From Sneathiella aquimaris (GTDB lineage: Bacteria > Pseudomonadota > Alphaproteobacteria > Sneathiellales > Sneathiellaceae), in the NCBI RefSeq assembly GCF_026409565.1, contig NZ_CP112881.1, positions 124,001 through 188,000 of the forward strand: a stretch of DNA of 64,000 nucleotides, written 5' to 3'. Made by a program: the position numbers and the translations under genes. Positions 4,244-55,794 of the stretch are shown here, in pieces. The stretch's first letter is position 1. Each line of letters starts with the position of its first letter. Under the pieces are notes generated by a model that had not been told where the DNA came from, did no database searches, and saw nothing but the letters and a program-made list of their open reading frames with translations.

Positions 4244-4282
4244 ATGGTTTTTCTAACCTAGTCTTATTGGCTGATATCTACA

Positions 4283-25439: not shown

Positions 25440-25865
25440 TTAAAACCGGTGGATGGCGGCCTTTACGACCCCCCATATCAGTGTATCCTCTGTGATAGGT
25501 ATTTCCGGATAATCTGGGTTGGCTGGTATCAGGCATGGTTTTTTATCAACAACCACGTACATCTTCACCGTCAGTTCACCGTTTAGAGCGGCAACAACGA
25601 TCATCCCAGACTTTGGGGTGATGGACCGATCAATCACCAAAATCGAGCCGTCGAGGATTCCGACACCTTTCATGCTGTCGCCGGTGACCCGCATGAGGAA
25701 TGTTGCCGGAGGATTTGTCACGAGTAATTCATTCAGATCCAGCGGATCTTCTAGCCAGTCTTCCGCCGGAGAGGGAAACCCAGCAGGAACTAAGCCGCCA
25801 AATTGCTGCAAAGGTATCTTTGATTTAATCGTCGCGGGATTGATTTGAAGAATCTGTACTGTCAT
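25440..25865 (-). CDS. umuD: UmuD, autocleaved SOS mutagenesis protein
   Basis: The 141-residue protein has the LexA/UmuD S24 peptidase: cleavage region GFPSPAEDW, catalytic Ser in GDSMKGVGI and catalytic Lys in LNGELTVK. After RecA-stimulated self-cleavage, UmuD' partners UmuC. The frame is open to an ATG at 25892, but that start lies upstream of a LexA box at 25876-25890, so I chose the ATG at 25865, which gives the usual N-terminus (MTVQILQINPATIKSKIP). Confidence 0.92.
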   Translation of the reverse strand: MTVQILQINPATIKSKIPLQQFGGLVPAGFPSPAEDWLEDPLDLNELLVTNPPATFLMRVTGDSMKGVGILDGSILVIDRSITPKSGMIVVAALNGELTVKMYVVVDKKPCLIPANPDYPEIPITEDTLIWGVVKAAIHRF

Positions 25866-25875
25866 TTGGCAATGA

Positions 25876-25890
25876 GAACAAACAAAGAAC
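25876..25890 (-). promoter_or_regulatory. LexA (SOS) box of umuDC
   Basis: On the minus strand this is GTTCTTTGTTTGTTC, an exact fit to the alphaproteobacterial LexA operator GTTC-N7-GTTC. It ends ten bases before the chosen umuD start, which predicts repression by LexA and induction by DNA damage. Confidence 0.88.
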
Positions 25891-26080
25891 ATTTCTGCAA
25901 GAAAAATTCTTCAAACCTAGTCATTGAGTATAATAATTTCTTCAAAACATTCGTACTCTTTCTGGGTAGTAAGTTTCCGTTAATTTGTCTGAGTTAGTCT
26001 TTTTGTTAAATTTTATGACGGCGCTTGCGGTTTAGTTTCGTGGGCTTTTGATAAGTTGTAAATTAAACAGAAAGATTATT

Positions 26081-37399: not shown

Positions 37400-37461
37400 C
37401 AAATAGTCTTTCAGAAATTTATTTAACGTTCTTTGTTGCGAGCGCTAAGTGGCTTAATATT

Positions 37462-40400
37462 TTACATGGGTCTTGACCTGATACTTTGGTCGAAATCCTT
37501 CATTCCACTTCTTGAAAAGAATTCAAAAAGCTGATCCGTCTTTTCAGACAGATCGGACTCAGAGTAAGTATCGACAGGAAGACCAGTTCTATCGTCATAA
37601 AGGTGATCATAAATCGACTGACGGAAGCGATCACGTGTAGACGCCTTCCCGAATAAATCCTGAACATCATGCATTTGTTGTTCTAGGGACTTGAGAAGCG
37701 CAACCGCGACCGACTTAATTTTCTTGATGTCTGATTTGGACAAATCAGGTTTCAGAAGCATGTCGAAGACAGCAAGCTGTTCCTCGCTTTCCAATCCTTC
37801 CTTCACATATCTCTTGGATTCCGCACTCATTTCAGCGGTTAACCGCATCAATGCTTCAAACGTGGCTTCAATCGTGTTTTTGTCTTTTTCTTTGTTGTAG
37901 TCCCGAACAATCTCATCAAAACGTTCCTGAAAATCAGTACGTAAGGGATTTTGCTCCAGCATTTTCCGGAGCCGGTTTTCGACCACCGTCTTAACGTCCT
38001 GCACTTCAGAACGTTGGGTTTCGCTTTTCGAAAACTCTTTCCGAAGCAGATCGAAATTGATCTTTGAAATATCAAAGACCTTGTCATCGGATTCAGCATC
38101 AGCCTTCACGTCGATGGCATCACTGACGATAGCATTCAATTTCTGGATTATTTCAGAAGTATCTGCACTTTCACGATCATCTTGGAGTGTCTTGTAAAGG
38201 AAACTTATAGCTTCAGCGTCTGCGCGGTTGATTTGGACTCCTTTGAACGTAAGGCAGGCTTTGTATTTCCTAAAAACGGAACGAGCAGAAATCTCGAACT
38301 TCTTCCGGCTTTCATCATCAATATTCACGGCTTCCTTGGCATCTAGCAGTGCCTTGTTGCGGGCAAAACCGGTTGCCGTCTTTAGCGTTGCGAGATCGAA
38401 GCCATTATCATTCAATTGACTGCGGACAAATTCTATCGCTTCTACAAGTTCTTCCAGAAGTTCTTCTTCGGGATGCAACGGATCATTTTCAGTGCCGCCC
38501 TTACCATCGAAGCCACCTTCGCCTGTATGACCAGCAAAGGTTGAGAGTGCTTTTCGAAGGTTTTTTAGGATTCCACAGTAATCTACAATCAAGCCATTGT
38601 TCTTGCCCTCATGCACACGGTTTGCGCGGGCGATTGCCTGCATCAGCGTGTGCGCTTGTAGCGGCTTGTCGAGGTAAAGCGTCGAGAGAGAAGGTACGTC
38701 AAACCCGGTGAGCCACATGGCACAAACAATGACCACGCGGAAGGGATGTTCTTCGCGTTTAAAAGCGGATTCAACGTCAAGGCGCTTCCCATCTTCGAGT
38801 AGGAAACCTTCCCGCATAAGTTTTCTATGCGGAAAAATATCCAAGTCCCACTTGCGGAACTTGTCGACTTCACCTTGCTCGTCACTAATGACAACCGCCA
38901 TTTCTGTTTCGCGCATCCATGCGAGTTGGCGTTCCCGAACCAACTGATCCTGGTCGTCTTTCGCCGTTGAAAGCTCTGCTTCCAACTGCGCAATTTTGGC
39001 CTTCCATGCCTGAAGAAAATAGCCATGCATGCGAACGGCGGTGATCTTGTCAATTGCTACGAACATTGCCTTTCCGGTTTCCCAGTTCGTCGAATAATGT
39101 GCTGCAAAATCCGTTGCAATATGCTTCAGCCGCTTCTCGGCGGTAACAACATGGTATTCGCGCTTGAGCTCATTCTCTAACTTTGCGGCCACGTCCGCAT
39201 CGCTGATCTCAGCATCGGCGATGGCATTGGCCAGTTTTTCATTTAGCCCTTCAGCTGATAGCCCGAGCTTATCGCCCCGCGCATCATAGTAGAGTGGAAG
39301 CGTGGCATTATCCTCGATGGCCCGCTGGAAGTCATAGGTCGAGATGTAGCCACCAAAGACGCGCTGCGTGATCTCATCGCTGGTAAACAGCGGCGTTCCA
39401 GTAAACCCAATGAAGCTGGCGTTCGGTAGAGCGTCCCGCATGTTCATCGCCAACGTTCCGTATTGCGTCCGGTGCGCTTCGTCGGTCATGACGATGATGT
39501 TTTCCCTATCGGAATAGGCCTCACCGTCTTTTATCTCTTTGTTGAACTTCTGGATCAGCGAGAAAACAAATGCTTTCTGCTGGCCAAGTAAGTTTTTCAG
39601 CTGATCACCGCTGTCGGCGCGACATGGGTCTTTGTCATTGTTGGCTAGACCAACGCCCGCGAAGGTGTCGTAAATCTGCTTATCCAGATCGGCCCGATCG
39701 GTCAGCACGAGGAAGGTGAAATCACCGCCCAGCTTACGCCTTACCTTTTGCGCGAACAGCGCCATTGAGTAGGACTTGCCCGAACCTTGCGTGTGCCAGA
39801 ATACGCCAAGTTTTCCATCGCGTTCTTTACGTTCGATCACGGATTGCAGCGCACGATTGACCCCCAGGTATTGGTGGTTGCGCGCAACGATCTTGGCCAG
39901 CTTGCCGGTGCTGTCATCGAACAGAATGAAGTTCTCGAAGATGTCGAGGAAGTTGGCCTTGGTGCAGATACCCTTCACAAGGGTCTCCATTTGCACGACA
40001 CCTTTTTCGCCCTCGGCCAGGCGCTTCCAATCGCTGAAGTGTTCGTACTTGGCGCTGATCGATCCGACCTTGGCCTCAATTCCATTCCCTAAGACCACAA
40101 AGGCGTTGAAGTGGAAGAGCTGCGGGATCGTGTCCATGTAGTCTTTGAAGTTGTCGTCATAGGCGCGGCGCAGCGATTTGTCTGGGCGTTTCAGCTCCAC
40201 GAACATCAATGGCAGGCCGTTGACGAAACCGATGATGTCGGGGCGGCGGCGATGGCCATTTGGACCCATCACCCACATCTCACGTACGCATAGGAAATTG
40301 TTGTTGTCGGGGCTCTCGTAGTCGAAGACCTTCAGGCGCGTCTTCTTGATCTCACCGTTCTTCTTGTAGCTGGCGACCACCCCGTCACGGATCAACTCGT

Positions 40401-40683
40401 ATTTTTCGCTGTTGGTCTGAACAGTGGATTGAAATGCCAGTGTGTCGGTGATCTGGCGCAGCGCGTACGAGTAGGCCTCATCCGGCAAGCCAGGGTTCAG
40501 ACGGATCAGTGCTTCGCCTAAGTGACGGGTCAGCACGACCTCGCGGTCGGACTTGCGACCAAGTGTGCCTTCCGGCCCGAAGGTTTCGCTGTTGAACGCG
40601 AAGACAGACTCCCAACCGAGTTCGTCCTGCAAATACTCGGCGAGGGTGGCTTGGGCCAATCTGTCTTCGGTGTAATCGTTCAT
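37462..40683 (-). CDS. hsdR: Type I restriction enzyme R subunit
   Basis: The 1073-residue protein has the PD-(D/E)xK nuclease in RRRPDIIGFVNGLPLMFVEL followed by KRP (near 155-180), a helicase/translocase with Walker A HTQGSGKSYSMALFAQ near 303, MTDEAHRTQYG near 401 and IGFTGTPLF, and the C-terminal helical region. It translocates DNA and cuts far from the recognition site. It starts four bases after the end of hsdS. Reading is intact over its whole length. Confidence 0.95.
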   Translation of the reverse strand: MNDYTEDRLAQATLAEYLQDELGWESVFAFNSETFGPEGTLGRKSDREVVLTRHLGEALIRLNPGLPDEAYSYALRQITDTLAFQSTVQTNSEKYELIRDGVVASYKKNGEIKKTRLKVFDYESPDNNNFLCVREMWVMGPNGHRRRPDIIGFVNGLPLMFVELKRPDKSLRRAYDDNFKDYMDTIPQLFHFNAFVVLGNGIEAKVGSISAKYEHFSDWKRLAEGEKGVVQMETLVKGICTKANFLDIFENFILFDDSTGKLAKIVARNHQYLGVNRALQSVIERKERDGKLGVFWHTQGSGKSYSMALFAQKVRRKLGGDFTFLVLTDRADLDKQIYDTFAGVGLANNDKDPCRADSGDQLKNLLGQQKAFVFSLIQKFNKEIKDGEAYSDRENIIVMTDEAHRTQYGTLAMNMRDALPNASFIGFTGTPLFTSDEITQRVFGGYISTYDFQRAIEDNATLPLYYDARGDKLGLSAEGLNEKLANAIADAEISDADVAAKLENELKREYHVVTAEKRLKHIATDFAAHYSTNWETGKAMFVAIDKITAVRMHGYFLQAWKAKIAQLEAELSTAKDDQDQLVRERQLAWMRETEMAVVISDEQGEVDKFRKWDLDIFPHRKLMREGFLLEDGKRLDVESAFKREEHPFRVVIVCAMWLTGFDVPSLSTLYLDKPLQAHTLMQAIARANRVHEGKNNGLIVDYCGILKNLRKALSTFAGHTGEGGFDGKGGTENDPLHPEEELLEELVEAIEFVRSQLNDNGFDLATLKTATGFARNKALLDAKEAVNIDDESRKKFEISARSVFRKYKACLTFKGVQINRADAEAISFLYKTLQDDRESADTSEIIQKLNAIVSDAIDVKADAESDDKVFDISKINFDLLRKEFSKSETQRSEVQDVKTVVENRLRKMLEQNPLRTDFQERFDEIVRDYNKEKDKNTIEATFEALMRLTAEMSAESKRYVKEGLESEEQLAVFDMLLKPDLSKSDIKKIKSVAVALLKSLEQQMHDVQDLFGKASTRDRFRQSIYDHLYDDRTGLPVDTYSESDLSEKTDQLFEFFSRSGMKDFDQSIRSRPM

Positions 40684-40687
40684 GTTG

Positions 40688-41845
40688 TCAAATTTCTAAT
40701 CTGCCGTCCATCAGACGGGGAAGTAATAAGTCGCGGGCTCTTGCTGTCGCTGTGATTTGTACCTGCAAATTTGTAATCTGTTTTTGGATGGGGTCGACAA
40801 TTGAGTCGAAATCCATACGCAGTGCATTATTTGGTATAGCGAACTTTATTTGTGATAAGACATTTGCTGTCAAAAAAGGAACAGCTGCACCGCTGGCATG
40901 ACTTGCGATATCATAGCCTGAAAGTAGATAATAAAGGAAGGCTGACGAGACAAAGCCGCTATCTGGGACTGCGCCCATCATGTTGTTATCTATGATAGTG
41001 TCTCTGACTGTGACCCTCACACGGTTCTTTTTGAGTGCCTCACCAATCTTCGCAAAAACAATTGTTCCAGACGGAAAGGCTTTGGCCTTGAGCTCCTTTG
41101 CCTCCACTTCAGAAACCCAATTGTTCGCTTCAGTGATAGAAGCGGAATTTCCAGCGCTGTTCATATCTCCCACTTTGATAAATGGGTAATCCCCCGCCTT
41201 TTGGCCTTGGAATTTCATTTTGAATGCATTGCCCCCACGAAGCTTACAAAAATCCCCCAATTCCAAAACTTCAAAAGTCTCTGGCACGCCGTCGATGATC
41301 TTGACGTGTTCATGGCCGGGAAATCGGAAATGAGTAAACCATTCGCGATACAAAAGCCGCGCTGCCTCCTCCAACAACGCAATCCGCCGCCCGTTGTTTT
41401 CGATCAGGTCATCGTATGTGGACAGGATTGAAGCGATGCGTTTCTGCGAGGTGAGGTCAGGTAAATCTATTTCATAGGACCGAAGATTTTCGATGGTTAT
41501 TTGTGCTTGTGCAGCACCGGTATTCAATTTCGCCTTGAGAGGCTCCCGGCCAAGCCGATAGTACAAAAACTTCTTGTCAACGATATCCGATGATAGGCTG
41601 AGGACTATCGATAGGTTTGTTATCCATGCTTCGGGAGGCGAGATTTTTACATCACCAGTGCCCCCGACGCCCCGAGCAACTACAATCAGCTCCGGGTCCT
41701 TGTATAGAAATTCTTTTGCATAACCTGTGACCCGATATCCACTGTATATAGGATATCCCGTATCGCTCACAACGTTCTTTGGCGGCATTTTACCATACTT
41801 CATCGTGGCAAAATCGTCTATTCGCATTTTGGTCAGCGCACTCAT
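40688..41845 (-). CDS. hsdS: Type I restriction specificity subunit
   Basis: The 385-residue protein has two target recognition domains separated by the conserved helix: IDLPDLTSQKRIASILSTYD then DLIENNGRRIALLEEAARLL, followed by LYREWFTHFRFPGH, the usual central link. The second domain ends in a helix. It sets the DNA sequence recognised by the complex. The gene overlaps the end of hsdM by four bases (41842-41845) and precedes hsdR. The first recognition domain begins YGKMPPKNVVSDTGYPIYSG, typical of the family. Confidence 0.92.
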   Translation of the reverse strand: MSALTKMRIDDFATMKYGKMPPKNVVSDTGYPIYSGYRVTGYAKEFLYKDPELIVVARGVGGTGDVKISPPEAWITNLSIVLSLSSDIVDKKFLYYRLGREPLKAKLNTGAAQAQITIENLRSYEIDLPDLTSQKRIASILSTYDDLIENNGRRIALLEEAARLLYREWFTHFRFPGHEHVKIIDGVPETFEVLELGDFCKLRGGNAFKMKFQGQKAGDYPFIKVGDMNSAGNSASITEANNWVSEVEAKELKAKAFPSGTIVFAKIGEALKKNRVRVTVRDTIIDNNMMGAVPDSGFVSSAFLYYLLSGYDIASHASGAAVPFLTANVLSQIKFAIPNNALRMDFDSIVDPIQKQITNLQVQITATARARDLLLPRLMDGRLEI

Positions 41846-43844
41846 ACAAACAACTCTTCAAAATTCTTTTTGATGGTTGCCGCTAATTCCACTGCCTCGA
41901 CATTTAATCCATCGATCTCGATGTGAATGTCGCGCAAGGCTTCCTCAAAATCAAAATCCTCGTCCTCTTCTTCCGGTGCTACGCCGACGTAGCGGCCCGG
42001 AGTCAGGCTCCAGTCGTTGGCTTCCAGCTCGTCTCGGCTGACCAGCTTAACCAAACCTTCCACATCGCGCAGCTCGGCATCTGGGAACCGCGTTTGCAAC
42101 CATTCCGCCTGTGTATGGAAATATCGTGCACGTTTGAGATGCTCGGTTACTTTTTGTCGCGCAGTATCTAGTTCGTTCAGCCGCTTCTTGCCCTCGGCAG
42201 GTTTTGTGCCATCGGCCACGTCAGCCTCATGCACGCGAGTTGCCAGCTTGTAGAGATGGTCGATTTCCTTGACCAAGGCCCTGGCCTGAACTGCCACTGG
42301 CTCAAACGCTGTGCTGGAGGATTTCAGCCTGTCATTATCCCGGGCGGCGGCGTCCCATGTGGTGCGTGCATCCTTCGCTTTGTCACCCAGAGAAACGATA
42401 TCCGCCAAGACTTCATCTGCCAGCTTGTACAATTCGTCGTCTTTGTGCGCACCAGTCAGGGCCTTCAGCGCCTTTGCAAAACCGTCGAAATCGCAGGCCT
42501 GCATCTGGGTGAACGCCGTTTCCAGATAGTCCTGCACCAGCGCCAAAAAGCGGTCAGTCTGACCGCGATAGAGCCAGACCATGCTGGACAAGTTCTGTTG
42601 CTGTTCGGGCGTAAAGTCAAAAATCTTGCGAGTCACCTTACGGTAAACGTTGCGCGCATCGATCATCAGTACCTTGTTTTTTAGGTGTTCGGGCTTGGCC
42701 TTGTCAAAGAACCAAAGCTCACACGGCACAGCGCGCGTGTAGAAAAAGTTGCCACGGATGGCCATCATGACATCGACATCGCCGGTCTTGATCATCGCTT
42801 CGCGCACTTTGGCTTCACCGCCCCAGCAGATGATGACTGCGCTGACATGACGATACCCGCGCGTCCGGTATCGGATAGGTACGAGTAAAAGAACGACATC
42901 CAGACGTAGTTGCCGTTGGACACCTTCCCCTTGTTGTTCACCCCAGGAAGCCCGAATTCCAGACGGTCGTCATTCTTGATCTTTTCGGCGTCAATTTCGT
43001 CCACGTTAAAGGGCGGATTTGCCATGACAAAATCAAACGGCCCTTTGTCCTTGTGCGGGTCGTCGTAGTAGGAAATCGCCTTACTGATATCGCCTTCAAG
43101 CCCGTGAACCGCGAGGTTCATCTTGGCTAGGCGGATCGTCGTCGGGTTCTTCTCCATCCCGTAAAAGGTCACGCGGTCGCTGGGGTTGGCTTTCATTTTT
43201 TCGATGAAATGAGCGGATTGCACGAACATGCCGCCTGAACCACAGGCGGGGTCGATGATCTTGCCGTGGTCAGGTTCGATGACGTTGACCAGCGTTTGGA
43301 CGATCGAAACAGGTGTGAAAAATTCGCCGCCATCGTGGGCTTTCTGGTCAGCAAACTGCGTCAGGAAGTATTCGTAGATGCGCCCAAACACGTCACCATC
43401 AGCTTTTTGAAGCGCGGGATCGTTGAAGGTGCGCAAGAGCTGACCAAGGTCGTCATCGCCAAGTTCCTGATATTCCGACTTAGGCAGAGCGCCATCAAGG
43501 GACTGGTAGTCCGCTTCGATGCTTTCCATCGCAGCGATGATTGCACCTGCACGGTCTCCGCCATCGGGGATAGCGACCAGATGATCGAATTGCGCTTCTG
43601 GCTTCAGGAAGATCGAGCCTCGCTGCGAGAAGTCTTCCTTTGTCAGCGGGCGTGTGACGCCACCGCGCGAAGGAAGCGAAGCTTTGATGTCGTCCTGGAC
43701 GCGCAGAAAGCGGCTGTAGGCGTGACGCAGGAAGATGAGGCCCATGACGGGAAGGAAATATTCGTTACTGGCGAAGTTGGAGTTTGCACGAAGGTGGTCA
43801 GCTACTGACCAAAGTCGTTTTTCGATTTCGCCTACGTGATCCAT
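41842..43844 (-). pseudogene. hsdM: Type I DNA methyltransferase subunit, frameshifted
   Basis: The first frame (43844 to 42792) has the N-terminal helical domain, the SAM motif DPACGSGGMFVQSAHFIEK and the catalytic FDFVMANPPFN, then ends in a short wrong tail after IVMSAQSSSAGA. The second frame (from 42807 on, similarity starting about 42823) continues GGEAKVREAMIKTGDVDVMM and RGNFFYTRAVPCELWFFDK, the rest of the family. The break lies at a run of four C on the plus strand (42821-42824); one more base would restore a full M subunit. Loss of M would normally be lethal or silencing with an active R subunit, so phase variation, translational slippage or a sequencing error should be considered. 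Confidence 0.85.
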
Positions 43845-45051: not shown

Positions 45052-46578
45052 GTGAAAAAATATGCTTTTTATCTGCAAAGTATCAACATTCATCCTCATA
45101 CAGATATCCGCTATGACGTAGTAAAATGCGCGCAGAATAAGCAACAATTTTTCAGCGTTGTTGAAAAACGCTACCTTGGTAATCCGAATGAAAACAACTT
45201 TGAAGAAAGGATTATTTCTCATGAAGACAGACCCGAAAAACCGGTGCTTTTCAGAAACGAAGCATTTGCTAGATCGCATATTTTAAATTTGCTGACTAAA
45301 GAAGTCTTTCAAACAAAGCTTGTTACTCGAAATATAAACCAATTGTTTCGATTGATATTATTTCCTGAAGATCGTATTTCTCCAAAAGATGACCAATATC
45401 AAGATCTTTTAGGGCTACCCACCGAGCTGCTGCAAAATCGGAAAAACATTCCGATACTTCAACTCTCCCTATTCTATCAAATTCTGAAAACTCTTTCATC
45501 TGAAACAACTGAAATGATGAAATATCTTGATAATGATGTTAAAGAACTCTTCTGTTCTCAGGATCTTATCAACGGCGCCCCCATCAAGCTTATGGCTATC
45601 AGGGCGTGCTATCCAAATCTCACTGGTTCGGTTACCTATTTTTCTAACCTTGCGACTAAGTCTTTAACGGATGAAGACAAGTGCCAAATCAAAGAAAATA
45701 GAGATATTCGCGCTGTAGAGATGGAAAACCGTTTAGAGGAGCTTCGCAAAACCGACCAGTTCTATAAAGATGAAGCTCTCAAATTGTCTCAAAGCATCAC
45801 GCCGCCAGATATAAGTCAAATTCATCTAATCCCTGAAACAGATATAGCTGACTTTCAGATCAATCAGTCCAGGCATCTTCAGCAGCTACATGCAACTCTG
45901 AGGGAGCGTCCAGATTTACTCCATGTCCTGACTCAAACTGGCCCTTTTGTCACTCTCTGGATCCGTTGCTTAGAAAACGAGTCAGACGATATACAAATCT
46001 GGAAAGAATGGAATAAGTACGGAAAGCAAGATACAAAAAGGAAGATTTTTGAGCGCGCGCATTTCGCCGATATTCACCGCATCCCTATTTTGAGCCGGGG
46101 GCACCTAATCAATCTGAATAGCATTAGAGCTCGATTAAAAGATATCTACACGTCGGACCCTATGCGAGATAAAATAACTCATGAAGAACGGCAAATACTT
46201 GCAACTGCGTTGGGGCAGAACATAACCATTGTCAGAATTGGTGGAAAAGTTTTTCAGTATTTACCTGGAGAGAATATGTGGGTCCGAAAGGAGTTTGGAG
46301 TGCCCGACAGCTCAGGGTATGGCTCATCCTCTCGTTTATGGCAAGAGGGCAAAATTATCTCAAGAAACTATGGATCGACGATCATCCTTCCCTATATTAA
46401 CTCAGATAATATACATGTTCATGGGCATACACGGAATAAGGCTTATGAGGGCCCAGCAAAACTTCGAAAAGAACCTGTTGAGTTATCATGGCGCTCTTAT
46501 CAAATGAATAATAAAACAGACACGTGGTCGGTTGTTGAAGATGATGTCTATTACGCGGAACTGTTTAATACAGCCTAA
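45052..46578 (+). CDS. Unrecognised 508-residue protein
   Basis: The gene starts at GTG 45052. The protein has no signal peptide or membrane helix. It contains a long charged helical middle (EMENRLEELRKTDQFYKDEA, then LKLSQSITPP) and a C-terminal third with several aromatic/glycine strands (LGQNITIVRIGGKVFQYLPG, DSSGYGSSSRLWQEG). The composition is AT-rich and lysine/isoleucine-rich like the three genes that follow. I do not recognise any domain. It is on the same strand as the recombinase trio but is separated from it by 256 bases with a transposase scrap, so its membership in that system is uncertain. It might be cargo, for example a defence protein. Confidence 0.7.
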   Translation: MKKYAFYLQSINIHPHTDIRYDVVKCAQNKQQFFSVVEKRYLGNPNENNFEERIISHEDRPEKPVLFRNEAFARSHILNLLTKEVFQTKLVTRNINQLFRLILFPEDRISPKDDQYQDLLGLPTELLQNRKNIPILQLSLFYQILKTLSSETTEMMKYLDNDVKELFCSQDLINGAPIKLMAIRACYPNLTGSVTYFSNLATKSLTDEDKCQIKENRDIRAVEMENRLEELRKTDQFYKDEALKLSQSITPPDISQIHLIPETDIADFQINQSRHLQQLHATLRERPDLLHVLTQTGPFVTLWIRCLENESDDIQIWKEWNKYGKQDTKRKIFERAHFADIHRIPILSRGHLINLNSIRARLKDIYTSDPMRDKITHEERQILATALGQNITIVRIGGKVFQYLPGENMWVRKEFGVPDSSGYGSSSRLWQEGKIISRNYGSTIILPYINSDNIHVHGHTRNKAYEGPAKLRKEPVELSWRSYQMNNKTDTWSVVEDDVYYAELFNTA

Positions 46579-46834: not shown

Positions 46835-47371
46835 ATGTTGATCTCCGCCCATATTGAAGAAATCTCGCTCTCAAAAATAGATGGTATTGATGATAGTATC
46901 AAAGATCTGCTGAATTCCTTCAACTTAGGCCCAAGTTTGAAGGCGTTAAGTCATGAAATAACTTCTGACGCACTAAAAGTGTTCTTGGAGCTAGCGCCTA
47001 TTCGAGTTTTTAAACACAAGAAAAAAGAGACTTATCTTTGTGTTGCCGGTTGGCGACAACTGATGCTTGCCAAGGAATATTATAAAAATAATGAAGCATT
47101 GGTTCCTGTTCTTATTCAAGAAAAAAAGGGAAAGCTTGCTGAAATCCGAAAACGGTTTGTCGTTGAATCAATTCAGCTTCCAACTTTCTTTCAAATTGCC
47201 CGCGAAATTACAACAGTGCCAAAATCTATAGAGCAATCGTTAGCGAGAAATGCTGAACAGTCCTCACACGGAGAATTGCCAATTGAGGAACTTGAAAAGC
47301 TAGGTTTGAAAACAGCCGAACAAAGAGCAATTTGGGCCAATATGGCGCGGGAGACGCTATACCGTGGATGA
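46835..47371 (+). CDS. Small ParB-like protein of the recombinase trio
   Basis: The 178-residue protein contains APIRVFKHKKKETYLCVAGW followed by RQLMLAKEY (residues 54-82), which resembles the ParB/Srx-type N-terminal fold (position-specific hydrophobics and the GxRR/GWRQ corner). The C-terminal half is helical (REITTVPKSIEQSLARNAEQ, ELPIEELEKLGLKTAEQR) and could bind DNA. It overlaps the next gene by eight bases and the three genes form one transcript. ParB-like proteins can act as DNA clamps, CTP switches or nucleases; which applies here is unknown. Confidence 0.6.
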   Translation: MLISAHIEEISLSKIDGIDDSIKDLLNSFNLGPSLKALSHEITSDALKVFLELAPIRVFKHKKKETYLCVAGWRQLMLAKEYYKNNEALVPVLIQEKKGKLAEIRKRFVVESIQLPTFFQIAREITTVPKSIEQSLARNAEQSSHGELPIEELEKLGLKTAEQRAIWANMARETLYRG

Positions 47372-50090
47372 AACTAGAGCTCCAGGAGACAGCGCTTCAG
47401 AATTCCAAAAACTCTATCGGTTTGTTGCTACTCATCCCGAGGGAGGCAATGATAATGCAGATAAAGTTGCCCGTCTGATGTGGCAACTTAACGTACCCGC
47501 TGAGTTGAACGGATTTGGGTGGATCACTATGCAGCTTGCAGCCTGGATCGGATGTAAAACTGGTTATTTTGCTGGAGGTAAATTTTCTAGACAGATTGAA
47601 CTTACAGAGAATAGACAACATAAGTGCAGCTTATTGCAGTTGGATGACGAAGGCATGGCATTTTTTAATGATCTTCGTTGGTGGATTAAATGGTACGCCT
47701 CTCATTTTGATCAAATTAATCACTACATGGGTTTGGCTTTTGCCGATGGACCAGGTGAGGCAAAAGATCCAACTTCGCTTATCAAGAATAGTAGTCGACA
47801 TCCGCTGTATGTACTGTTGTTTTGTAAGTTGCACGACGAAAATTGGATAGATCTTTGTCTTCGATTGCTTGTTATGCACGCATATGCTTTACGGGAATGG
47901 GGATATTCCAAATTTCTTGAATATAACGGTGAGAACGAGTCTTCCGACATCCGCATTACAGTTGGCCTGCGCGCAAGAGAACTACGGACACTACATGACG
48001 AGGCTGCTGTGGCCTTTATAAATGATCTCACCACAGAAGAAATTTGGGGTAAAGATCTATCTTTACGTCGAAAAAATGCAAACAATTTTACAAACTGGCA
48101 GTTAGCAAAAGAGCCTATCCGGGTTGGTAATGATCTGGTAATTGAAGGGAATGCTGATAGTAAATCTCAGGTAATTGTAGGTTTGCTATCAAAATTGTTA
48201 CGTTTTTTCGATTCTGTCGGAAAAGGAAAATCAGGCAAGTTTCGCAAAAAAGGAAAAATTAGAAGTAAATCAAAAAGCCGTTCTAAGGTTTTTCCTTGGG
48301 GACGAGGAGAAGTTGAAATCGACTCTCACCGGTTTATACGGGATCCGGGGCATGACGCAGATGATGCTACTCCACATGAAGATGGACGACTAATTATTGA
48401 AGAATTCTTGGTTGGTGCTGATGACGAAGAAATTGTAGATTCCGATTTGCCAATTGATGAGTTCCTTGGCCCAAATTCCTTAATTTTGGAAGGGACGAAG
48501 AGAGACAAGAAATCTCAATTTAAAATTATCAATCCCATTTCTGCGAAACAACGTCAAAAACATATAAGTATGAGTGCCCAGCATTTTGCTTGGCAGACCG
48601 AAATGTTGACTTTTACGCAAATAAAGTCTCTTCACACATATTGTAATGAATGCATCCAAAAACACTTGGATAAAGCTAGCTATCTACTCTCTAAGGTCGA
48701 GAAGTGGGAGCTCGAATGTGCCTTGCTCATTCAAGTCATACTTTGGACAGGTTCAAATTTGGAGAGAGCTTTAGGATTGAGGGTGACGTCGATTTCTGGG
48801 ATTGAGATGGCACCGGATAGTTTCCGGCTTTTAATTAGGAACGACAATATTGATGATGAAATAATAGGGGAGTTTTTGTTATTCCCAATTACACCTGAAT
48901 ATAAATCTACACCCACTTATGATTCTGAAAACTGTAGGGAACGAGTTGCTCGACTTCATTTACCGGATATCGTTAGTCAGGCGAAATCTCTAAAAAAATT
49001 CCATCAAAAATTTGTGAAGAATAAAAAGAGTAATCTGATTTTCCAACCGGTGAATAAATCGGCTGAAAAATCCACAGAATTATATAGAAAAGAATTAAAG
49101 AAGTTTATTATAGAATTTCAGAAAATTGATTATTTCGCTGAAGGTATTACGCTCAATAGAATTGAAAATTTTATGTTTCGATACCTTGAGAGTGAAACAA
49201 AAGACGCAGCCTTAGCGTCCATAATTACTGCAAATCACTACAAATCTGCTTATGTACGCCTTTTTTATTCCACATATTCTATGGAATATATCCAAAAAAC
49301 TTACGGCAAAGCGACGGGACCTATAAGAGAAGAATTGAAAATCAATTTCGATGCTGGGTATAACAGCGAGGTGACTGGGCAACATATAGGTGCTCGGTTT
49401 TGTTTGGAAAGGCAGCCAATTTGTTCAGCGATCATGCGCCTTAAAAATGATTTAGAAGAAGCGTCGCATTATAGGACTTTGGAAGAGTTTATTCATTTTC
49501 ACAATTTGTACACGTTGTACACTGTTTTAATGTATGGGTTTTCTACAGGTGCGCGAGCTGTTAAGTCACCGGTTTTGCTTTTTCAAGAGTTTGATAGTAA
49601 TGGCTTTTCTTCATATGCGGATAAAGATTCAGATCCGCCTTATCATGCACGATTGATCTGGGTTCCTGCTGTTGTTCTGGAACATTTGGAAAGTTATTCA
49701 AAGTACTTTCACCGAGTCAAAAGCTGGATGTTTCTGCAGGATCAAAAGATACCGGATGAGGTTTCGAGTTTTTTTCTAAAAAAGACGAGAAACAAAATTA
49801 AAGTAGATGAGGCAAAACCTAGTGTAATTGAGCGACATTTCTCTACATACCTGAGTGCTCCGGCTAACGCGCATCGACGTTTTCTGAGAACTAGTTTGAT
49901 TGAAGTAGGCGTATTACCTGAATTGGTAGATGCCGTGATGGGGCACTGGGGAACTGGTGAAGAACCTTGGTCAAGATGGTCTTCTTTTTCTTATAAGAAC
50001 TACGTGGCTACAATCGAGCCAGAAATTAACAAAATTCTCCAAGAATTTGGTTTCACAGCATTTAGTTTTTCAGACGGAAAGAAAATTTAG
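47364..50090 (+). CDS. Very large tyrosine-recombinase-like protein (first of two)
   Basis: The 908-residue protein starts at GTG 47364 with GGGAG nine bases upstream. The first 700 residues are not recognisable; they include a basic stretch (KSGKFRKKGKIRSKSKSRSK near 285-305) and acidic stretch near 325-365. The last 200 residues carry a tyrosine-recombinase pattern: STGARAVKSP (R731, box I), AHRRFLRTSLIEVG (R839 and R842, with Arg where box II usually has His), MGHWGTGEE (H861) and SYKNYV (Y877 or Y880 as the nucleophile). GHWG with a following SRWSSFSYKNY suggests the family of large integrases found in site-specific transposons. Length is about twice that of a normal integrase. It overlaps the next gene by one base. 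Confidence 0.7.
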   Translation: MDETRAPGDSASEFQKLYRFVATHPEGGNDNADKVARLMWQLNVPAELNGFGWITMQLAAWIGCKTGYFAGGKFSRQIELTENRQHKCSLLQLDDEGMAFFNDLRWWIKWYASHFDQINHYMGLAFADGPGEAKDPTSLIKNSSRHPLYVLLFCKLHDENWIDLCLRLLVMHAYALREWGYSKFLEYNGENESSDIRITVGLRARELRTLHDEAAVAFINDLTTEEIWGKDLSLRRKNANNFTNWQLAKEPIRVGNDLVIEGNADSKSQVIVGLLSKLLRFFDSVGKGKSGKFRKKGKIRSKSKSRSKVFPWGRGEVEIDSHRFIRDPGHDADDATPHEDGRLIIEEFLVGADDEEIVDSDLPIDEFLGPNSLILEGTKRDKKSQFKIINPISAKQRQKHISMSAQHFAWQTEMLTFTQIKSLHTYCNECIQKHLDKASYLLSKVEKWELECALLIQVILWTGSNLERALGLRVTSISGIEMAPDSFRLLIRNDNIDDEIIGEFLLFPITPEYKSTPTYDSENCRERVARLHLPDIVSQAKSLKKFHQKFVKNKKSNLIFQPVNKSAEKSTELYRKELKKFIIEFQKIDYFAEGITLNRIENFMFRYLESETKDAALASIITANHYKSAYVRLFYSTYSMEYIQKTYGKATGPIREELKINFDAGYNSEVTGQHIGARFCLERQPICSAIMRLKNDLEEASHYRTLEEFIHFHNLYTLYTVLMYGFSTGARAVKSPVLLFQEFDSNGFSSYADKDSDPPYHARLIWVPAVVLEHLESYSKYFHRVKSWMFLQDQKIPDEVSSFFLKKTRNKIKVDEAKPSVIERHFSTYLSAPANAHRRFLRTSLIEVGVLPELVDAVMGHWGTGEEPWSRWSSFSYKNYVATIEPEINKILQEFGFTAFSFSDGKKI

Positions 50091-53000
50091 TGTCGCCAGT
50101 TGCCCAAAAAATAAAGGATCATCTAAAGCAAAGACTGGGTGATAATTCTTTCGATTTTTCAGTTTTAGAGAAATTGCACCTCATTTTGTTGGAGAGCAAC
50201 ACCAAGTTGACAAAGGTTCTGCTCCTCGAACAACGCCCTAAAAGTTCAAAAGCGTACGATTATACAAGTTTAATTTCAAAACTGTTGAAGTGTGGCGCAA
50301 ACAAGTCAGAGCAATATGGACTACTGCGTGCCTTTTATTATTGGGTCGCATGTCTCAATGAAATTGAGGAGGATTGGTCCCTAAAGCTTCCGCCTGTTCC
50401 GTTCTTCGCTCCAGCCCAAAAGAGCCCATTTACCATGGAGAGTAGAAGTTATAACTCGTTTGTTGCGGGTATTCAATCTTCTCTAAATGACTCGATATTA
50501 GAAAATTCAACAGCCAATTCTGAATTAGATATTAGGGCGGAACTAGGACGGATAGTCTTATGCTCAATAATATCCGGACATCTTCACTCTATAGATGCAG
50601 TAAAAGCCTTTCTTAAATCTATTAGGTTGATGGAATCCTTTCAAAATGCGGTTTGGTTGGATTTAGAAGTTGAAACTAAGAGGCATGCCGAACCGGAACT
50701 AAGGCGGTTTTTTATTGATCCGCAAACAATGGCTTTGATTTTAGGGAGCAGGGCAGAGACACTAGATTTGGCCGAGGAGATGGGTGCTCTTAAAACTTCT
50801 TTTCCTAAACAGGTATTTGGGGTCGTGCAAAATTTCTTGAAAACGGCGGGAAATCCAGAGCTTAACAAAATACCTAATCTTTCGTATTTACTCAAAACCG
50901 TGAATCATCATTTGGCGTTAAGCACCTTTCATGGGTTTGCAGCATATGCTGCCAGAAATAGCAGTTGCCATTCTCTGAAGCGCTCTTGTTGGGCAAGGAT
51001 AATGGGTTTTAGTTATGACTTTCCAAAAGAGAAGGTGGTCAAAAGCATTAGAATAGACTCAGACCCGGTTCTGCAAAATGTGCATGACATATTTTCTATT
51101 CAGATGTCTGCTGATCATTTAAAAATACGTCAATTAATTTTACACAAAAATATATCGAAAAAAGAAGCCAAAGAAACTCTGAATGCAATAAATATTGAAT
51201 GTGAGGCGGCGCAAAATAAGGGGAATGCATATAAATTATTGTCGCAATGGGCATATGATCGTCGTTGGATGCATTCCAAACTAGAGCTTGCGACGTTGAG
51301 AGGATACGTCTCAAGTATGGGCAGTCGACTGATCGATTTCGCGTCAGAAGTTGATTTGTTGGGCCTTGATAAAGATGGTTTCGATATGCTCTACCGAGAA
51401 ATATTGCAGGACGTTGATACAGCGAGCGCAAAGCAAAAAATTAGTCGGGGGTTACACAATTTTCACAATTTTTTAGTGGATGAATATGCGGCGGTCCCAC
51501 TCCAAGGAAAAGGAACTTTTCAAGGCGGGTTAGCACTTGCTGCTGTAGACGCAAATATTCTTACTTTCGATGAATATCAAAAATGCCTGGCGGCTTTTGA
51601 TAGTGATAGAGAGTTAATGTTGGAAGATCCTAAGTTAGTTTTAATTGTCAAATTGATTTTTATTATAGGGTTTCGTTGTGGTTTGCGGCGTAGTGAAGTT
51701 TTTAAACTCAGATTAGCTGATGTCCATTTAAGCACGAGAACGGAAATTTTGGTCAGGCCATGGTGGGGCAGGCAATTAAAGACGGTAGCATCAAATCGCA
51801 AAATCCCCGTTTATAAACTATTGGAACCGAATGAACTTGATCTTTTGGAGCGGTTTACGGCACAGCAAACAAGTGAGTGGGGGGCCGTATATAGCTTGAT
51901 CCACGACAGCTCAGACCTTTTTCGGAACGGGGACTCTCCATTATTTGGTTACGTTTCAACTACAGGGTTGGTTTTATCGAGAGAAGTGCTGTTTGGTCAT
52001 ATCCATCGAGTAATGCGGTCCGTTACTGGCGATGAAAGTGTCAGATATCACCATTTACGACACAGCTTTGCAACATGGGGCATGTTGAGATTATCTTTAG
52101 CAGAACAGAATGAAATACCTGTTTTGTTTCCTAAGCAACCAATCACACAAAATGTACTCGAGAGGTCAAAAGAATTTCGATCAAATGTGCTTGGAACAGA
52201 GCAAACGTCTCGCAAGAGTTTCTATGCAATCGCCTCTATCCTGGGACATAGCGGGCCAGATATGTCACTACATCATTACATACATTGTATGGACATCTTG
52301 CAAAAGTTGGAAAAGCCACAGATTGATGTGTTGCTTGTTTGTAAGGCCGCCAAAGTATCAAAGTCTAGCATGTATAGAATGCGAGAAGCTCCTGAGAAAA
52401 ACGACCTGATCGATAATGTGTTGATTAAAAGAGCAAAAAAGGAAGAGTTGATCACGTTACACAAAGAGCACAAAGGCAAAAGCCGGTCGGTGGATGTTTT
52501 AGGCGATAGGGACAGAGTACTCATTAGGTTAGCGGATTTTCTGCAAATATGGTCAAAGAACACAATGAGTTTTTCTGATTTATGTAACCGATTTGAGTAT
52601 CCAGAGGTGCAAGCGATACGCTATCTAGAAAACGGGAAGCATTTACAAAAATATGGGACGAGATCTGTTTCGTATAAGGAAAATGAGGGTCGAAGCCTAT
52701 CACCCATTGTTCGTCTGACAGGACAACAAAAACGACAATTAGACACAGGGTTTGATCGGATTTTTGAGTATGCCTCTAAAGATCAAGGTCGTTTCTTTGA
52801 ATTATGCCGCAACTATTCTAAGTTGCGGTGGAAAACACAAAATGGATTTCATTTCGATATCGAAACAAATTTAGAGCTCGCTAAAACATTTGTCAGGTTT
52901 TGTGAATTTGTCTACGGACACGAGTGTAAATTGCAATATCAGGCATACAAAGGTTCTGATTTTGAAAAAATAAAGAAATGGCAAAAAATTATTGGTTTTA

Positions 53001-53170
53001 CCGATGAAAGTTGGGGTATTTCGCTAGCGCGGCCTAACAAAGCTTCAAAGGCCATCAGCAAAACAGTAAATATACGACCAATAGATTGTTCGTATACGGC
53101 CTTATCAGAAGGCAGCGAAAATCCGGTAGCACGGATTTTGTTGCATTTAATGGCTATTTACTTGATTTAG
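50090..53170 (+). CDS. Very large tyrosine recombinase (second of two)
   Basis: The 1026-residue protein has a clear catalytic domain in its middle: GFRCGLRRSEVFKLRLADVH with R533, YHHLRHSFATWGM with H654 and R657, and ILGHSGPDMSLHHYIH with H720 and nucleophile Y730. The first 400 residues are helical; residues 385-480 look like the SAM-like core-binding domain (TLRGYVSSMGSRLIDFASEV). After the catalytic domain comes an extra region of 290 residues with an HTH-like VCKAAKVSKSSMYRMREAPE near 755. It starts at GTG on the last base of the preceding stop. The extended C-terminal region is not found in ordinary integrases. Confidence 0.82.
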   Translation: MSPVAQKIKDHLKQRLGDNSFDFSVLEKLHLILLESNTKLTKVLLLEQRPKSSKAYDYTSLISKLLKCGANKSEQYGLLRAFYYWVACLNEIEEDWSLKLPPVPFFAPAQKSPFTMESRSYNSFVAGIQSSLNDSILENSTANSELDIRAELGRIVLCSIISGHLHSIDAVKAFLKSIRLMESFQNAVWLDLEVETKRHAEPELRRFFIDPQTMALILGSRAETLDLAEEMGALKTSFPKQVFGVVQNFLKTAGNPELNKIPNLSYLLKTVNHHLALSTFHGFAAYAARNSSCHSLKRSCWARIMGFSYDFPKEKVVKSIRIDSDPVLQNVHDIFSIQMSADHLKIRQLILHKNISKKEAKETLNAINIECEAAQNKGNAYKLLSQWAYDRRWMHSKLELATLRGYVSSMGSRLIDFASEVDLLGLDKDGFDMLYREILQDVDTASAKQKISRGLHNFHNFLVDEYAAVPLQGKGTFQGGLALAAVDANILTFDEYQKCLAAFDSDRELMLEDPKLVLIVKLIFIIGFRCGLRRSEVFKLRLADVHLSTRTEILVRPWWGRQLKTVASNRKIPVYKLLEPNELDLLERFTAQQTSEWGAVYSLIHDSSDLFRNGDSPLFGYVSTTGLVLSREVLFGHIHRVMRSVTGDESVRYHHLRHSFATWGMLRLSLAEQNEIPVLFPKQPITQNVLERSKEFRSNVLGTEQTSRKSFYAIASILGHSGPDMSLHHYIHCMDILQKLEKPQIDVLLVCKAAKVSKSSMYRMREAPEKNDLIDNVLIKRAKKEELITLHKEHKGKSRSVDVLGDRDRVLIRLADFLQIWSKNTMSFSDLCNRFEYPEVQAIRYLENGKHLQKYGTRSVSYKENEGRSLSPIVRLTGQQKRQLDTGFDRIFEYASKDQGRFFELCRNYSKLRWKTQNGFHFDIETNLELAKTFVRFCEFVYGHECKLQYQAYKGSDFEKIKKWQKIIGFTDESWGISLARPNKASKAISKTVNIRPIDCSYTALSEGSENPVARILLHLMAIYLI

Positions 53171-53315: not shown

Positions 53316-53714
53316 TTAAGCAGTCCGCAAAATCGAAAGCCGCAAAACAAGTTTTTTGGATACGTTGTCAATGGTGTTGTTGTCACCTGCCAGCATGTAT
53401 TCTAGGGGCGTCAATCCCTGAAACGTATCTGGACCTGTCTTGAGCCATGTAAGGCGTTGCGATGAGTTTGAAAAGCATTGTTTCAATAAAAAATTGATCG
53501 CAACAATGACCACGAGCCGCTTGTTAGCGTCGTCCTCAAGAATAGGAAATATTCCATGTTTCCAGAGTTGAAATGTATCAAATGATCTTAAGTTTGAAAT
53601 ATCGAAAGTTTCGTCATCACTCAGCTGCCAAATATAGGCCACTTCCAAAAATGACTCGATAAGATGTTGCTGTTCGAACTCTTTGTGTGTTTTGTTTAAT
53701 GTTTGTTTTGTCAT
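53316..53714 (-). CDS. DUF2384-like (MbcA/ParS/Xre toxin-binding) protein
   Basis: The 132-residue protein ends in a segment (QRLTWLKTGPDTFQGLTPLE, then YMLAGDNNTIDNVSKKLVLR) that resembles the toxin-binding domain of MbcA/ParS/Xre antitoxins: a Trp-Leu-x-x-x-x-x-x-F-x-G-x-x-P core with a conserved helix. No RES or other toxin gene lies beside it. It begins 12 bases after the integrase stop on the same strand, so it may be part of the integration module or a solitary antitoxin-like regulator. A fragment of the same domain lies at 15147-15491. Confidence 0.6.
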   Translation of the reverse strand: MTKQTLNKTHKEFEQQHLIESFLEVAYIWQLSDDETFDISNLRSFDTFQLWKHGIFPILEDDANKRLVVIVAINFLLKQCFSNSSQRLTWLKTGPDTFQGLTPLEYMLAGDNNTIDNVSKKLVLRLSILRTA

Positions 53715-53726
53715 GGTAGTGCCTTT

Positions 53727-54884
53727 CTAGTTTTTAGCTTGGAGATATGTTTCAAATGCTGAACCATCTTGACGGGTCAGGTTTGGAACAAAACGGGAGT
53801 AGACGCGAAATAACATTTCGGTGGTGGAATGACCCATTTGACGGGCGATCCACTCTGGACTTTCACCTGCTGCTAACCATAAAGTGGCTGCGGTATGACG
53901 CGTTTGATATGGCCTCCTTTTCTTAAGGCTGAGGAGGCTGAGGAGGGGATACCAAACCTTTTTCGTCACATCATTATGGCGCAAAGGCTTTCCCGCTAGA
54001 TTACAAAAAACATATTCCATCTTGCCAGTTGCGGAATACTGCCTTTTAAAGGCCTCAAATACGGGAGCAGACATGTCTACCTCCCGCCAGGAACCGTCAG
54101 TTTTGACGGGCCCCATTAAGCCGTCGACGATGGCCTCTCTAATGAGAATTTGACGTTTGTCAAAATCCACATACTTCCATTTAAGGCCATCGATTTCACC
54201 AGTTCGCAGGGCTGTAAAAAACCGAACGAGGTAATAGTTTTTGTAATCCTCTCGGACCGTATAGACAATTTGCCAAACTTCATCGAGTGTGAAGGGCTCA
54301 ACATCCGTTCGAGGTACCTTTAAGGGTTTGATGTTCTTAAACGGAGTGTTGAATTCATATCGTTCAGCCGCTTCTGCAAGGATCATTCGAAGAGGCGTCA
54401 TGATGTGGTTGATACGAGAAGGGGATAATTTATTCCCCTTCAGTCCTTTCTCCAAAGTGAGGTCCGCTCGAAACGTCAAAATGCTGGATTTTGTGATCTG
54501 ATCAACGGAACAACTTCCAAAACTTGGAATTAAATATTTTTGAAGGGTGAGCTGCTGGCTTTTTCGATATGACTGCCGCCAGCTCGGTTCCATTTCTGCA
54601 AACCAAGTCTTTGCAAAGTCTGAGAAGAGGGGGAAAGTGCCCTCAGTTTCAACAAAGGACGTTGATCTGACGTCAGTAAGCTGCTCTGCTCTTCTTGAAT
54701 TCGGAAAATAGCTTTTATAGTCAAATTGATCTAACAGGATCTCTGCATCAATACGGTCGGCAATAATTTGCAGTCGTTTTCGATGAGCGGGTGTATCTAT
54801 TAATTTCGTGAACTCGCGGCATCGTTTTCCTCGGTATCTGAAATCGAGAAAAAGCTTTCCTGCTTTGGAATTTACACTACCCAT
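53727..54884 (-). CDS. Phage-type tyrosine integrase
   Basis: The protein of about 385 residues starts at ATG 54884 with AAGGAG six bases upstream (a longer frame to 55010 runs into the preceding gene). It has an Arm/core N-terminal region (KAGKLFLDFRYRGKRCREFT), a SAM-like core and the catalytic residues in FTALRTGEIDGLKWKYVDF (Arg), RPYQTRHTAATLWLAAG (His-x-x-Arg box), ARQMGHSTTEMLFRVYSRFV (His and Tyr). It integrates and excises the island at the tRNA-Leu gene 0.8 kb away. The excisionase-like gene lies 10 bases upstream. Confidence 0.93.
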   Translation of the reverse strand: MGSVNSKAGKLFLDFRYRGKRCREFTKLIDTPAHRKRLQIIADRIDAEILLDQFDYKSYFPNSRRAEQLTDVRSTSFVETEGTFPLFSDFAKTWFAEMEPSWRQSYRKSQQLTLQKYLIPSFGSCSVDQITKSSILTFRADLTLEKGLKGNKLSPSRINHIMTPLRMILAEAAERYEFNTPFKNIKPLKVPRTDVEPFTLDEVWQIVYTVREDYKNYYLVRFFTALRTGEIDGLKWKYVDFDKRQILIREAIVDGLMGPVKTDGSWREVDMSAPVFEAFKRQYSATGKMEYVFCNLAGKPLRHNDVTKKVWYPLLSLLSLKKRRPYQTRHTAATLWLAAGESPEWIARQMGHSTTEMLFRVYSRFVPNLTRQDGSAFETYLQAKN

Positions 54885-54894
54885 AAGTAACTCC

Positions 54895-55104
54895 TTATTG
54901 AATGCCGGAAAGCAAAGCATGAATTGATGGTGCTTCTGCCATGTCTTTTTCGATCTTCTCCCAGATGTAGAGAATTTTTCGTCCTCCAAATGGCCGGATA
55001 TAATGGACACCTTCCAAAAGAACGCTGTCTTTCAATCGTTCTCGAATAGTCCGGGGGTCGTATTTGATGAGTTCGGAGAGTTCGTCAGTTGTTAAGTAGG
55101 TCAT
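54895..55104 (-). CDS. AlpA/excisionase-like small HTH protein
   Basis: The 69-residue protein starts MTYLTTDELSELIKYDPRTI and continues RERLKDSVLLEGVHYIRPFG GRKILYIW, the winged-helix layout of AlpA/MerR-like excisionases (an initial LTTxELxxxL, then a strand with the substrate-binding IRPFGGRK and a final helix). It lies 10 bases upstream of the integrase gene with the same orientation and has AGGAAG before the ATG. It would set the direction of recombination or switch on the integrase. Confidence 0.85.
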   Translation of the reverse strand: MTYLTTDELSELIKYDPRTIRERLKDSVLLEGVHYIRPFGGRKILYIWEKIEKDMAEAPSIHALLSGIQ

Positions 55105-55707: not shown

Positions 55708-55794
55708 TGGTGCCCAGGAGAAGACTCGAACTTCCACTTCCATACAGAAACTAGCACCTGAAGCTAGCGCGTCTACCAATTCCGCCACCTGGGC
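55708..55794 (-). tRNA. tRNA-Leu (anticodon CAG)
   Basis: On the minus strand the 87-base gene starts GCCCAGGTGGCGGAATTGG and ends TCCTGGGCACCA. It forms the acceptor stem GCCCAGG/CCTGGGC, the D-loop with GGTAGAC, the anticodon stem CTAGC/GCTAG around TTCAGGT (anticodon CAG, reading CTG), a long variable arm as expected for leucine, and the TTCGAGTC T-loop. The CCA end is encoded. Its 3' end faces the island, so it is the likely attachment site of the integrase at 53727-54884. Confidence 0.95.

Follow-up and report, generated by a model that had tools for sequence, protein, structure and literature searches.

We think it fairly probable that three overlapping genes (g1, g2 and g3) in the 64,000-nucleotide stretch of Sneathiella aquimaris DNA analysed here (the window) serve a family of integrative elements as their recombination operon, with one cutting recombinase (g3), one dedicated partner (g2) and one ParB-like helper (g1). 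We base this reading on the conserved gene order and overlaps, on fusions of g2 with g3, on the co-divergence of the genes, on the active site of g3, on the recombinase domain of g2, and on the location of the trio beside integrases and at a DNA border. From these features we infer that the trio moves DNA. Table 1 lists the features of the window. The ORF coordinates agree with the sequence-only reading of this DNA, which had described three overlapping genes for proteins of 178, 908 and 1026 residues, g1 and g2 sharing 8 bases and g2 and g3 sharing 1 base. The AT-rich block that it had noticed is also evident, since the G+C content per kb is 0.378-0.423 over 46-53 kb and 0.463-0.535 in the part of the window beyond 56 kb.

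Table 1. Features of the window, with positions, strand and the basis of each assignment.
Feature	Position	Strand	Basis
g1, ParB-like N-terminal domain, 178 aa	46835-47371	+	ORF, ATG start
g2, putative partner recombinase without conserved nucleophile, 908 aa	47364-50090	+	ORF, GTG start; 32-sequence conservation
g2 domain D1, residues 408-662, possibly a decayed recombinase domain	48585-49349	+	conservation, hhalign
g2 domain D2, recombinase catalytic fold	49371-50072	+	profile match to XerA, Pfam in members
g3, tyrosine recombinase, 1026 aa	50090-53170	+	ORF, GTG start; Pfam, PHROGs, conservation
132-aa ORF between g3 and integrase	53316-53714	-	ORF
Arm-DNA-bind_2 integrase at tRNA end, convergent with g3	53727-55010	-	Pfam
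tRNA-Leu(CAG); 3' end = right end of extra DNA	55708-55794	-	comparison with relatives
GajA (Gabija)	35426-37402	-	PADLOC, E 2.5e-185
GajB (Gabija)	33570-35429	-	PADLOC, E 8.4e-193
Type I restriction genes R, S, M	37462-43844	-	PADLOC
508-aa ORF directly left of trio	45052-46578	+	matches phrog_22329 (function unknown), E 8.9e-8
umuDC-like pair	24186-25892	-	by reading; UmuC of L180 matches, E 1e-86

The tyrosine recombinase g3

Judged by profile matches and conserved residues, g3 is a tyrosine recombinase with a complete catalytic residue set. The protein matched the Pfam family Phage_integrase (27.9 bits, cut-off 27.1) and phrog_1 of PHROGs (E 4.3e-19), and NCBIfam XerD and other models matched it far under their cut-offs only. 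In an alignment of 31 sequences, R533, K564, R657, H720 and Y730 were invariant, while residue 654 was His in 29 sequences and Tyr in 2. The signature first read from this gene (R533, H654, R657, H720 and Y730) is therefore kept across the family, with H654 in 29 of the 31. The full active site lies at residues ~380-740, with long extra regions on either side. In the predicted model of g3 (mean pLDDT 75.8), residues 116-305 appear as a helix, three strands and helices, reminiscent of a recombinase domain; recombinase profiles gave no support for the N-terminal part of g3 (E 0.067-0.36).

The putative partner protein g2

The C-terminal domain of g2 (D2) is, by profile and residue conservation, a recombinase catalytic domain. 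The D2 profile (A11) matched XerA (4a8e) with an E-value of 2.1e-6 and XerD with only 0.12, and Phage_integrase of Pfam was found in D2 of 8 of 25 members (best E 1e-4). The window's own D2 by itself matched no Pfam family, and searches with g2 returned no family in NCBIfam and one chance-level match in Pfam (E 0.096). The AlphaFold model of g2 (mean pLDDT 71, pTM 0.58) had no Foldseek match at E <= 0.001; its ten best matches, with E-values of 0.09-0.40, were one Tn1549 integrase chain and nine Flp chains.

Among 32 g2 sequences, R731, K754, R763, N835, R838 and G860-H861 were invariant, and R842 was present in 30. The place of the box II His (column 839) is taken by His in 20 sequences, Arg in 9, Lys in 2 and Pro in 1. 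At the nucleophile column, 11 residues past H861, Tyr occurs in 11 of the 32 sequences, Phe in 8, His in 7 and other residues in 6, and the residue right after this column is Ser in 31. R731, R842, H861 and an Arg for the box II His stand as first described; K754, which that description did not include, has to be added to them. Y877 and Y880, then suggested as the nucleophile, were rejected in that role, as Tyr is present at 877 in 3 of the 32 sequences and at 880 in 16. Of the two giant tyrosine recombinases that had been proposed, what holds is g3 together with a recombinase domain at the C-terminus of g2, and what is not supported is g2 as a second catalytic recombinase acting through Y877/Y880. 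With R, K, R and H kept and the Tyr column degenerate, g2 has retained the residues that hold and activate the phosphate but not reliably the attacking residue. Because Tyr stands at the nucleophile column in a third of the family, those g2 proteins might still cut DNA.

Upstream of D2, residues 408-662 (D1) contain a single invariant residue, Y635 (25/25 in one alignment, 32/32 in another). In hhalign comparisons, the end of D1 pairs with the end of D2, which puts Y635 at the degenerate nucleophile column. Box I of g3 is paired with the start of D1, the part that was also aligned when D1 was compared with 29 integrases. Block-shuffled controls reached the observed score in 1 of 80 cases against D2, 1 of 80 against the integrases and 0 of 80 against g3. 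A recombinase origin of D1 is opposed by its E-values of only 0.008-0.032 and HH-suite probabilities of only 1.6-4.7%, where D2 itself reached 8.7% and 19% in the same tests, and by the lack of a recombinase match of D1 among PDB sequences or in Pfam. It is possible, perhaps even probable, that D1 is a decayed recombinase domain. We consider it quite unlikely that g2 is a tandem recombinase with a split active site, to which D1 would give Y635 and D2 would give R-K-(H/R)-R-H, the two parts meeting in cis or in trans as in Flp; if this were true, g2 and g3 would make a recombinase built of two chemically different cutting units.

The ParB-like protein g1

By profile, g1 has the ParB N-terminal fold. 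The g1 profile (A7, 22 sequences) matched chains of Spo0J (E 1.5e-4), Noc (E 2.2e-4) and ParB (E 1.1e-3), which bears out the ParB-like label initially given to it, and g1 by itself matched no family in Pfam or NCBIfam. The C-terminal part of g1 is weakly Fis-like (E ~0.2) and probably binds DNA; g1 of Vibrio had an Xre-like HTH match under the cut-off (E 0.0011). A g1-profile match (E <= 0.01) adjoins g2 in 49 of 68 loci with enough upstream DNA, and in 30 of 49 when the loci used for building the profile are left out. The sole match elsewhere lies ~0.8 kb upstream of g2 in L050. In 19 of the 68 loci, mostly from Acinetobacter and Acidithiobacillus, g1 was not recognised, which weighs against our main reading.

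Distribution of the trio

Species genomes were scanned with alignment A5, which gave 156 matching stretches; 95 of these encode relatives, and the best 80 were kept. Among these best 80 of 95 loci, 66 have a separate g2 adjoining g3 (within the length limits) and 5 have the two genes fused to encode proteins of 1736-1963 aa; the remaining 9 are cut by contig ends, fall below the length limits or have no recognised g2. The 80 loci come mainly from Gammaproteobacteria, many of them Acinetobacter, with further hosts in Acidithiobacillus, Geobacter-type and other delta-type genomes, Vogesella, a Burkholderiales MAG, a Nitrospirae MAG and Acidobacteria MAGs. Thus, the same gene order recurs in distant bacteria and the homologues are not found only singly, in keeping with the first description of the three genes as one block. 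Within the tests made, no outcome that had been named as refuting that description came up. The pairwise distances of g2 and g3 correlate at 0.98 (26 loci), a value reached by 0 of 2000 permutations.

When plasmids were searched with g3 by tblastn, 58 records were returned, none of them with 80% coverage. In the best plasmid match (Vibrio cyclitrophicus), the ORFs follow the gene order of the window and encode 208, 743 and 995 aa; those of an Aeromonas caviae record encode 209, 790 and 1120 aa, and downstream of them lies a convergent integrase of the window's kind. A plasmid of Acinetobacter schindleri carries a g2-g3 fusion of 1682 aa, and a Sphingobium plasmid carries a shorter variant (306 + 947 aa). 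Two genomes from the same genus as the window likewise contained g2-g3 fusions, of which one is broken by a stop codon. Among the genomes sampled, such genes are uncommon: with the window's own genome counted each time, 21 of 398 from the phylum gave a match to the g2 profile, and g3 was present in 3 of 240 from the class and in 3 of 24 from the genus. Viral contigs were also scanned with g3; 4 stretches matched, and none of them encoded a relative. More distant trio-like pairs stand beside like integrases in L167, L168, L169, L172 and L175 (g3 of 726-965 aa, g2 of 533-821 aa), so that the family probably extends beyond the 80 loci. The annotated copies that we encountered bear the labels 'hypothetical protein', 'integrase' or 'site-specific integrase', and NCBIfam has no model for either g1 or g2.

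Neighbouring integrases and DNA borders

An integrase of the window's type lies within the fetched DNA of 27 of the 80 loci, in 21 downstream of g3 and convergent with it, and in 6 upstream on the same strand; the trio there therefore looks like part of the end module of an island. The pairwise distances of this integrase and g3 correlate at 0.77 (26 loci; reached by 0 of 2000 permutations). The reverse search, from the integrase in 398 genomes, gave 35 matches besides the window's own; we took the 27 that reached 36% identity or more across most of the length and left out 8 weaker or partial ones. In the fetched DNA around these 27 like integrases, g2 and g3 were present in 11 cases (two of which are near copies), g2 alone in 1 and neither in 15; that 16 of the 27 stand without the g2-g3 pair weighs against the main reading. 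Several relatives have an HD-domain gene between g3 and the integrase. This gene (L004, 9545-10408, minus strand) contains a TraI_2-like part by Pfam, has relatives in 18 trio-bearing loci, counting L004 and two near-identical copies, and may mark mobilizable elements. The 132-aa ORF that takes its place in the window is unrelated to it, and no relatives of this ORF were found. The 508-aa ORF to the left of the trio is likewise without relatives in the fetched trio loci, phrog_22329 being its sole match. Relatives of the seven defence proteins of the window that were queried were found in 7 of the 80 trio loci only.

In seven Acinetobacter plasmids, TAACAGAAAACTAAAAAAAA stands ~160 nt before g1, after four different contexts: the Fic side in L012, L180, L202 and L204, the hsdR side in L178, the transporter side in L203 and the GST/TetR side in L179. 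By comparison of these sequences, the junction looks like a recombination border. The plasmid segment of ~6.2-6.4 kb is essentially the trio alone in different contexts, and no integrase of the window's type was found in these plasmid loci; with a sharp left border and without the integrase, such trios fit a separate element of the kind first suggested for the window. On the right, a umuDC-like operon flanks the trio in L178, L180, L203 and L204, and the other three plasmids differ. A right flank shared by four of the seven plasmids beside a varying left flank suggests a border to variable cargo and not two free ends. The left flank of L179 is present in L201, where the trio is absent. The right half of this empty site was not recovered, the only sizeable match adjoining an annotated transposase gene, so that in no single case are both ends of the element fixed. 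In chromosomal Acinetobacter loci the left border is soft, with homology running past the supposed border, and this weighs against the main reading. Empty sites were also sought for the trio of Ketogulonicigenium, and none was found.

Comparison with known mobile elements

The trio matches no named mobile-element family that could be tested, and SE, GInt, RIT and Tn554 elements are set apart from it by description. Judged by titles and abstract openings, no literature description of this trio was found. The Gamma-Mobile-Trio (GMT) is, in the available parts of PMC12715929, a three-gene operon tied to defence-rich islands. It is like the present trio in that its three genes encode a tyrosine recombinase, another large protein and a small one. 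Among 321 genomes, one had a match over the cut-off of the GmtY family (NF040693), and this gave the GMT locus L207, whose second and third ORFs we take to be GmtZ and GmtX. The proteins of L207 have 441, 908 and 200 aa with the small one last, whereas those of the window have 178, 908 and 1026 aa with the small one first. When profiles of g1, g2 and g3 were compared with all ORFs of this one locus, the best E-values were 0.39, 0.31 and 0.09, respectively, and g1-g3 and their relatives matched no GMT family at E <= 1. The GmtY model gave five matches under its cut-off in the window's own genome, none of them within the window. GMT membership was rejected because gene order and sizes differ, no profile matched (one locus) and g1-g3 and their relatives gave no match to the GmtY family; the model NF040694 was unrelated, and NF040692 ('recomb_assoc') matched nowhere and so does not bear on the question.

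The strand-biased circularizing integrative elements (SE) carry, in the available parts of PMC10214605, an operon of IntA, Tfp, IntB and Srap at one end of the element, with two RHRY recombinases and a Tfp without the RHRY motif, and the survey reported in those parts found no homologues of Tfp or Srap in Alpha- or Betaproteobacteria. As there described, SE share with the trio the combination of recombinases, a recombinase-fold protein without catalytic residues and a small accessory protein at an element end. The same description sets the two apart: SE have four genes, two RHRY recombinases and the small gene last, while the trio has three genes, one full residue set and the small gene first, and Tfp lacks the RHRY motif, whereas g2 has R, K, R and H and lacks the Tyr. 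Neither the window nor its relatives have the four-gene, two-RHRY, small-last arrangement, and by gene anatomy the trio is unlikely to be an SE. GInt elements have, in the available parts of PMC5385486, a ginABCD operon at the island end that encodes three recombinase-like proteins and a small one, GinC being without the first arginine. The likeness to the trio is in an island-end operon of recombinase-fold proteins and a small protein (GinA, GinB, GinC and GinD); in contrast to these four genes with the first Arg missing in GinC, the trio has three genes, two of them recombinase-like, with this Arg invariant in g2. By that description GInt is set apart, as the trio does not have the four genes of ginABCD. 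RIT elements (three recombinases of 315-410 aa, all with the catalytic Tyr) and Tn554 (TnpA and TnpB with RHRY, plus TnpC), both as given in the available parts of PMC10214605, are also multi-gene tyrosine-recombinase elements, and the description sets them apart from the trio, in which g3 only has the full residue set. The trio does not have the three Tyr-bearing recombinases of RIT elements, since the catalytic Tyr is in g3 only and g1 is ParB-like.

Proposed function of the trio and alternatives

If the trio is a recombination operon, g3 would cut and join DNA. g2 would fill partner positions in the recombinase assembly and would not cut there, strand exchange being confined to the sites bound by g3, and g1 would bind near the end sequence and organise the end; these roles of g1 and g2 are suggested by conservation and by analogy. 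A conventional integrase, where present, would insert the DNA at a tRNA or another target, and the trio would act in a further step at the border next to it, for instance in circularisation or in joining up variable cargo.

Alternatively, though on balance this is unlikely, the three genes and short ends could make up a free-standing transposon, little more than 6 kb long, that repeatedly landed beside island integrases. The tRNA-Leu island would then move by its Arm-type integrase alone, and the defence genes would not be cargo of the trio. Such a transposon would account for the Acinetobacter segments of ~6.2-6.4 kb with their sharp left border in different contexts, for the lack of a window-type integrase in those loci, and for the 16 of 27 like integrases without the trio pair in the fetched DNA. 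However, chance landing would hardly place the trio near the same integrase type again and again in lineages far apart (27 of 80 loci), the divergence of the integrase is correlated with that of g3 (0.77; 0 of 2000 permutations), and the right flank is umuDC-like in four of the seven plasmids while the left varies.

The plan shared with described elements, in which several recombinase-fold proteins and a small one are encoded by an overlapping operon at an element border, could mean that the trio is a diverged member of a described class (SE, GInt or Tn554-like) beyond the reach of sequence searches. In the available parts of PMC10214605 and PMC5385486, Tfp of SE and GinC of GInt are likewise recombinase-fold proteins with missing catalytic residues. 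We hold such a descent to be improbable, as gene number, gene order and the count of catalytic recombinases differ, and the SE survey, in the available parts of PMC10214605, is without homologues of Tfp or Srap in Alpha- and Betaproteobacteria. Very little credence can be given to the trio being a cargo system, for example for defence or regulation, that was made from recombinase parts and is not a mobility module. It would fit the Gabija and type I restriction genes to the left of the trio in the window and the Fic/HipA-type or hsdR genes to its left in five of the seven Acinetobacter plasmids, and it is opposed by the scarcity of relatives of the seven queried defence proteins (7 of 80 loci), by the complete recombinase active site of g3 and by the sharp DNA border. 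If the trio is a mobility operon, as we propose, it would represent an uncatalogued class of element that helps assemble islands of variable cargo, with defence genes among the cargo in the window. If g2 and g3 do divide the labour in this way, they would offer a clean case in which to ask how recombinases confine cutting to particular sites, likewise a question for SE, GInt and Tn554 elements.

The tRNA-Leu island

In the same-genus genomes G244 and G240, a host gene lies 66-68 nt from tRNA-Leu(CAG), whereas in the window's genome the end of this gene is ~86 kb away from the tRNA and 30 kb beyond the left edge of the window. The alignment of relatives with the window begins at ~55705 and runs to the right. 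What lies left of 55707 in the window is therefore most simply extra DNA, which suggests that tRNA-Leu carries ~86 kb of additional sequence, perhaps acquired in more than one step. Of the ends that related genomes had been expected to reveal, the right end of the extra DNA is at the 3' end of tRNA-Leu, and the trio's own left end was not found in the window. One complication is G168, in which DNA resembling that found 12-15 kb to the left of the window in the window's genome sits on the other side of the tRNA, so that not all of the 86 kb need have arrived together or be foreign. At the same tRNA, G041 retains a small remnant that includes part of a like integrase and, displaced, a copy of ~77 nt of the tRNA end; the window's genome was searched for such a copy from 40 kb left of the window up to the tRNA, and none was found.

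An exact 13-nt repeat of the tRNA-Leu anticodon region at 4740-4752 was not accepted as an att site (E-value of the 13-mer, 0.21). By reading, an apparent decayed integrase gene lies at ~4250-4760 on the minus strand and contains this 13-nt copy. The M subunit of the type I restriction system is apparently split into two ORFs (42792-43844 and 41842-42807). The umuDC-like pair of the window lies 22 kb from the trio, whereas in four Acinetobacter plasmids such genes flank the trio on the right. Between 8832 and 18209, the window has ORFs that resemble, by reading, copper and heavy-metal resistance genes.
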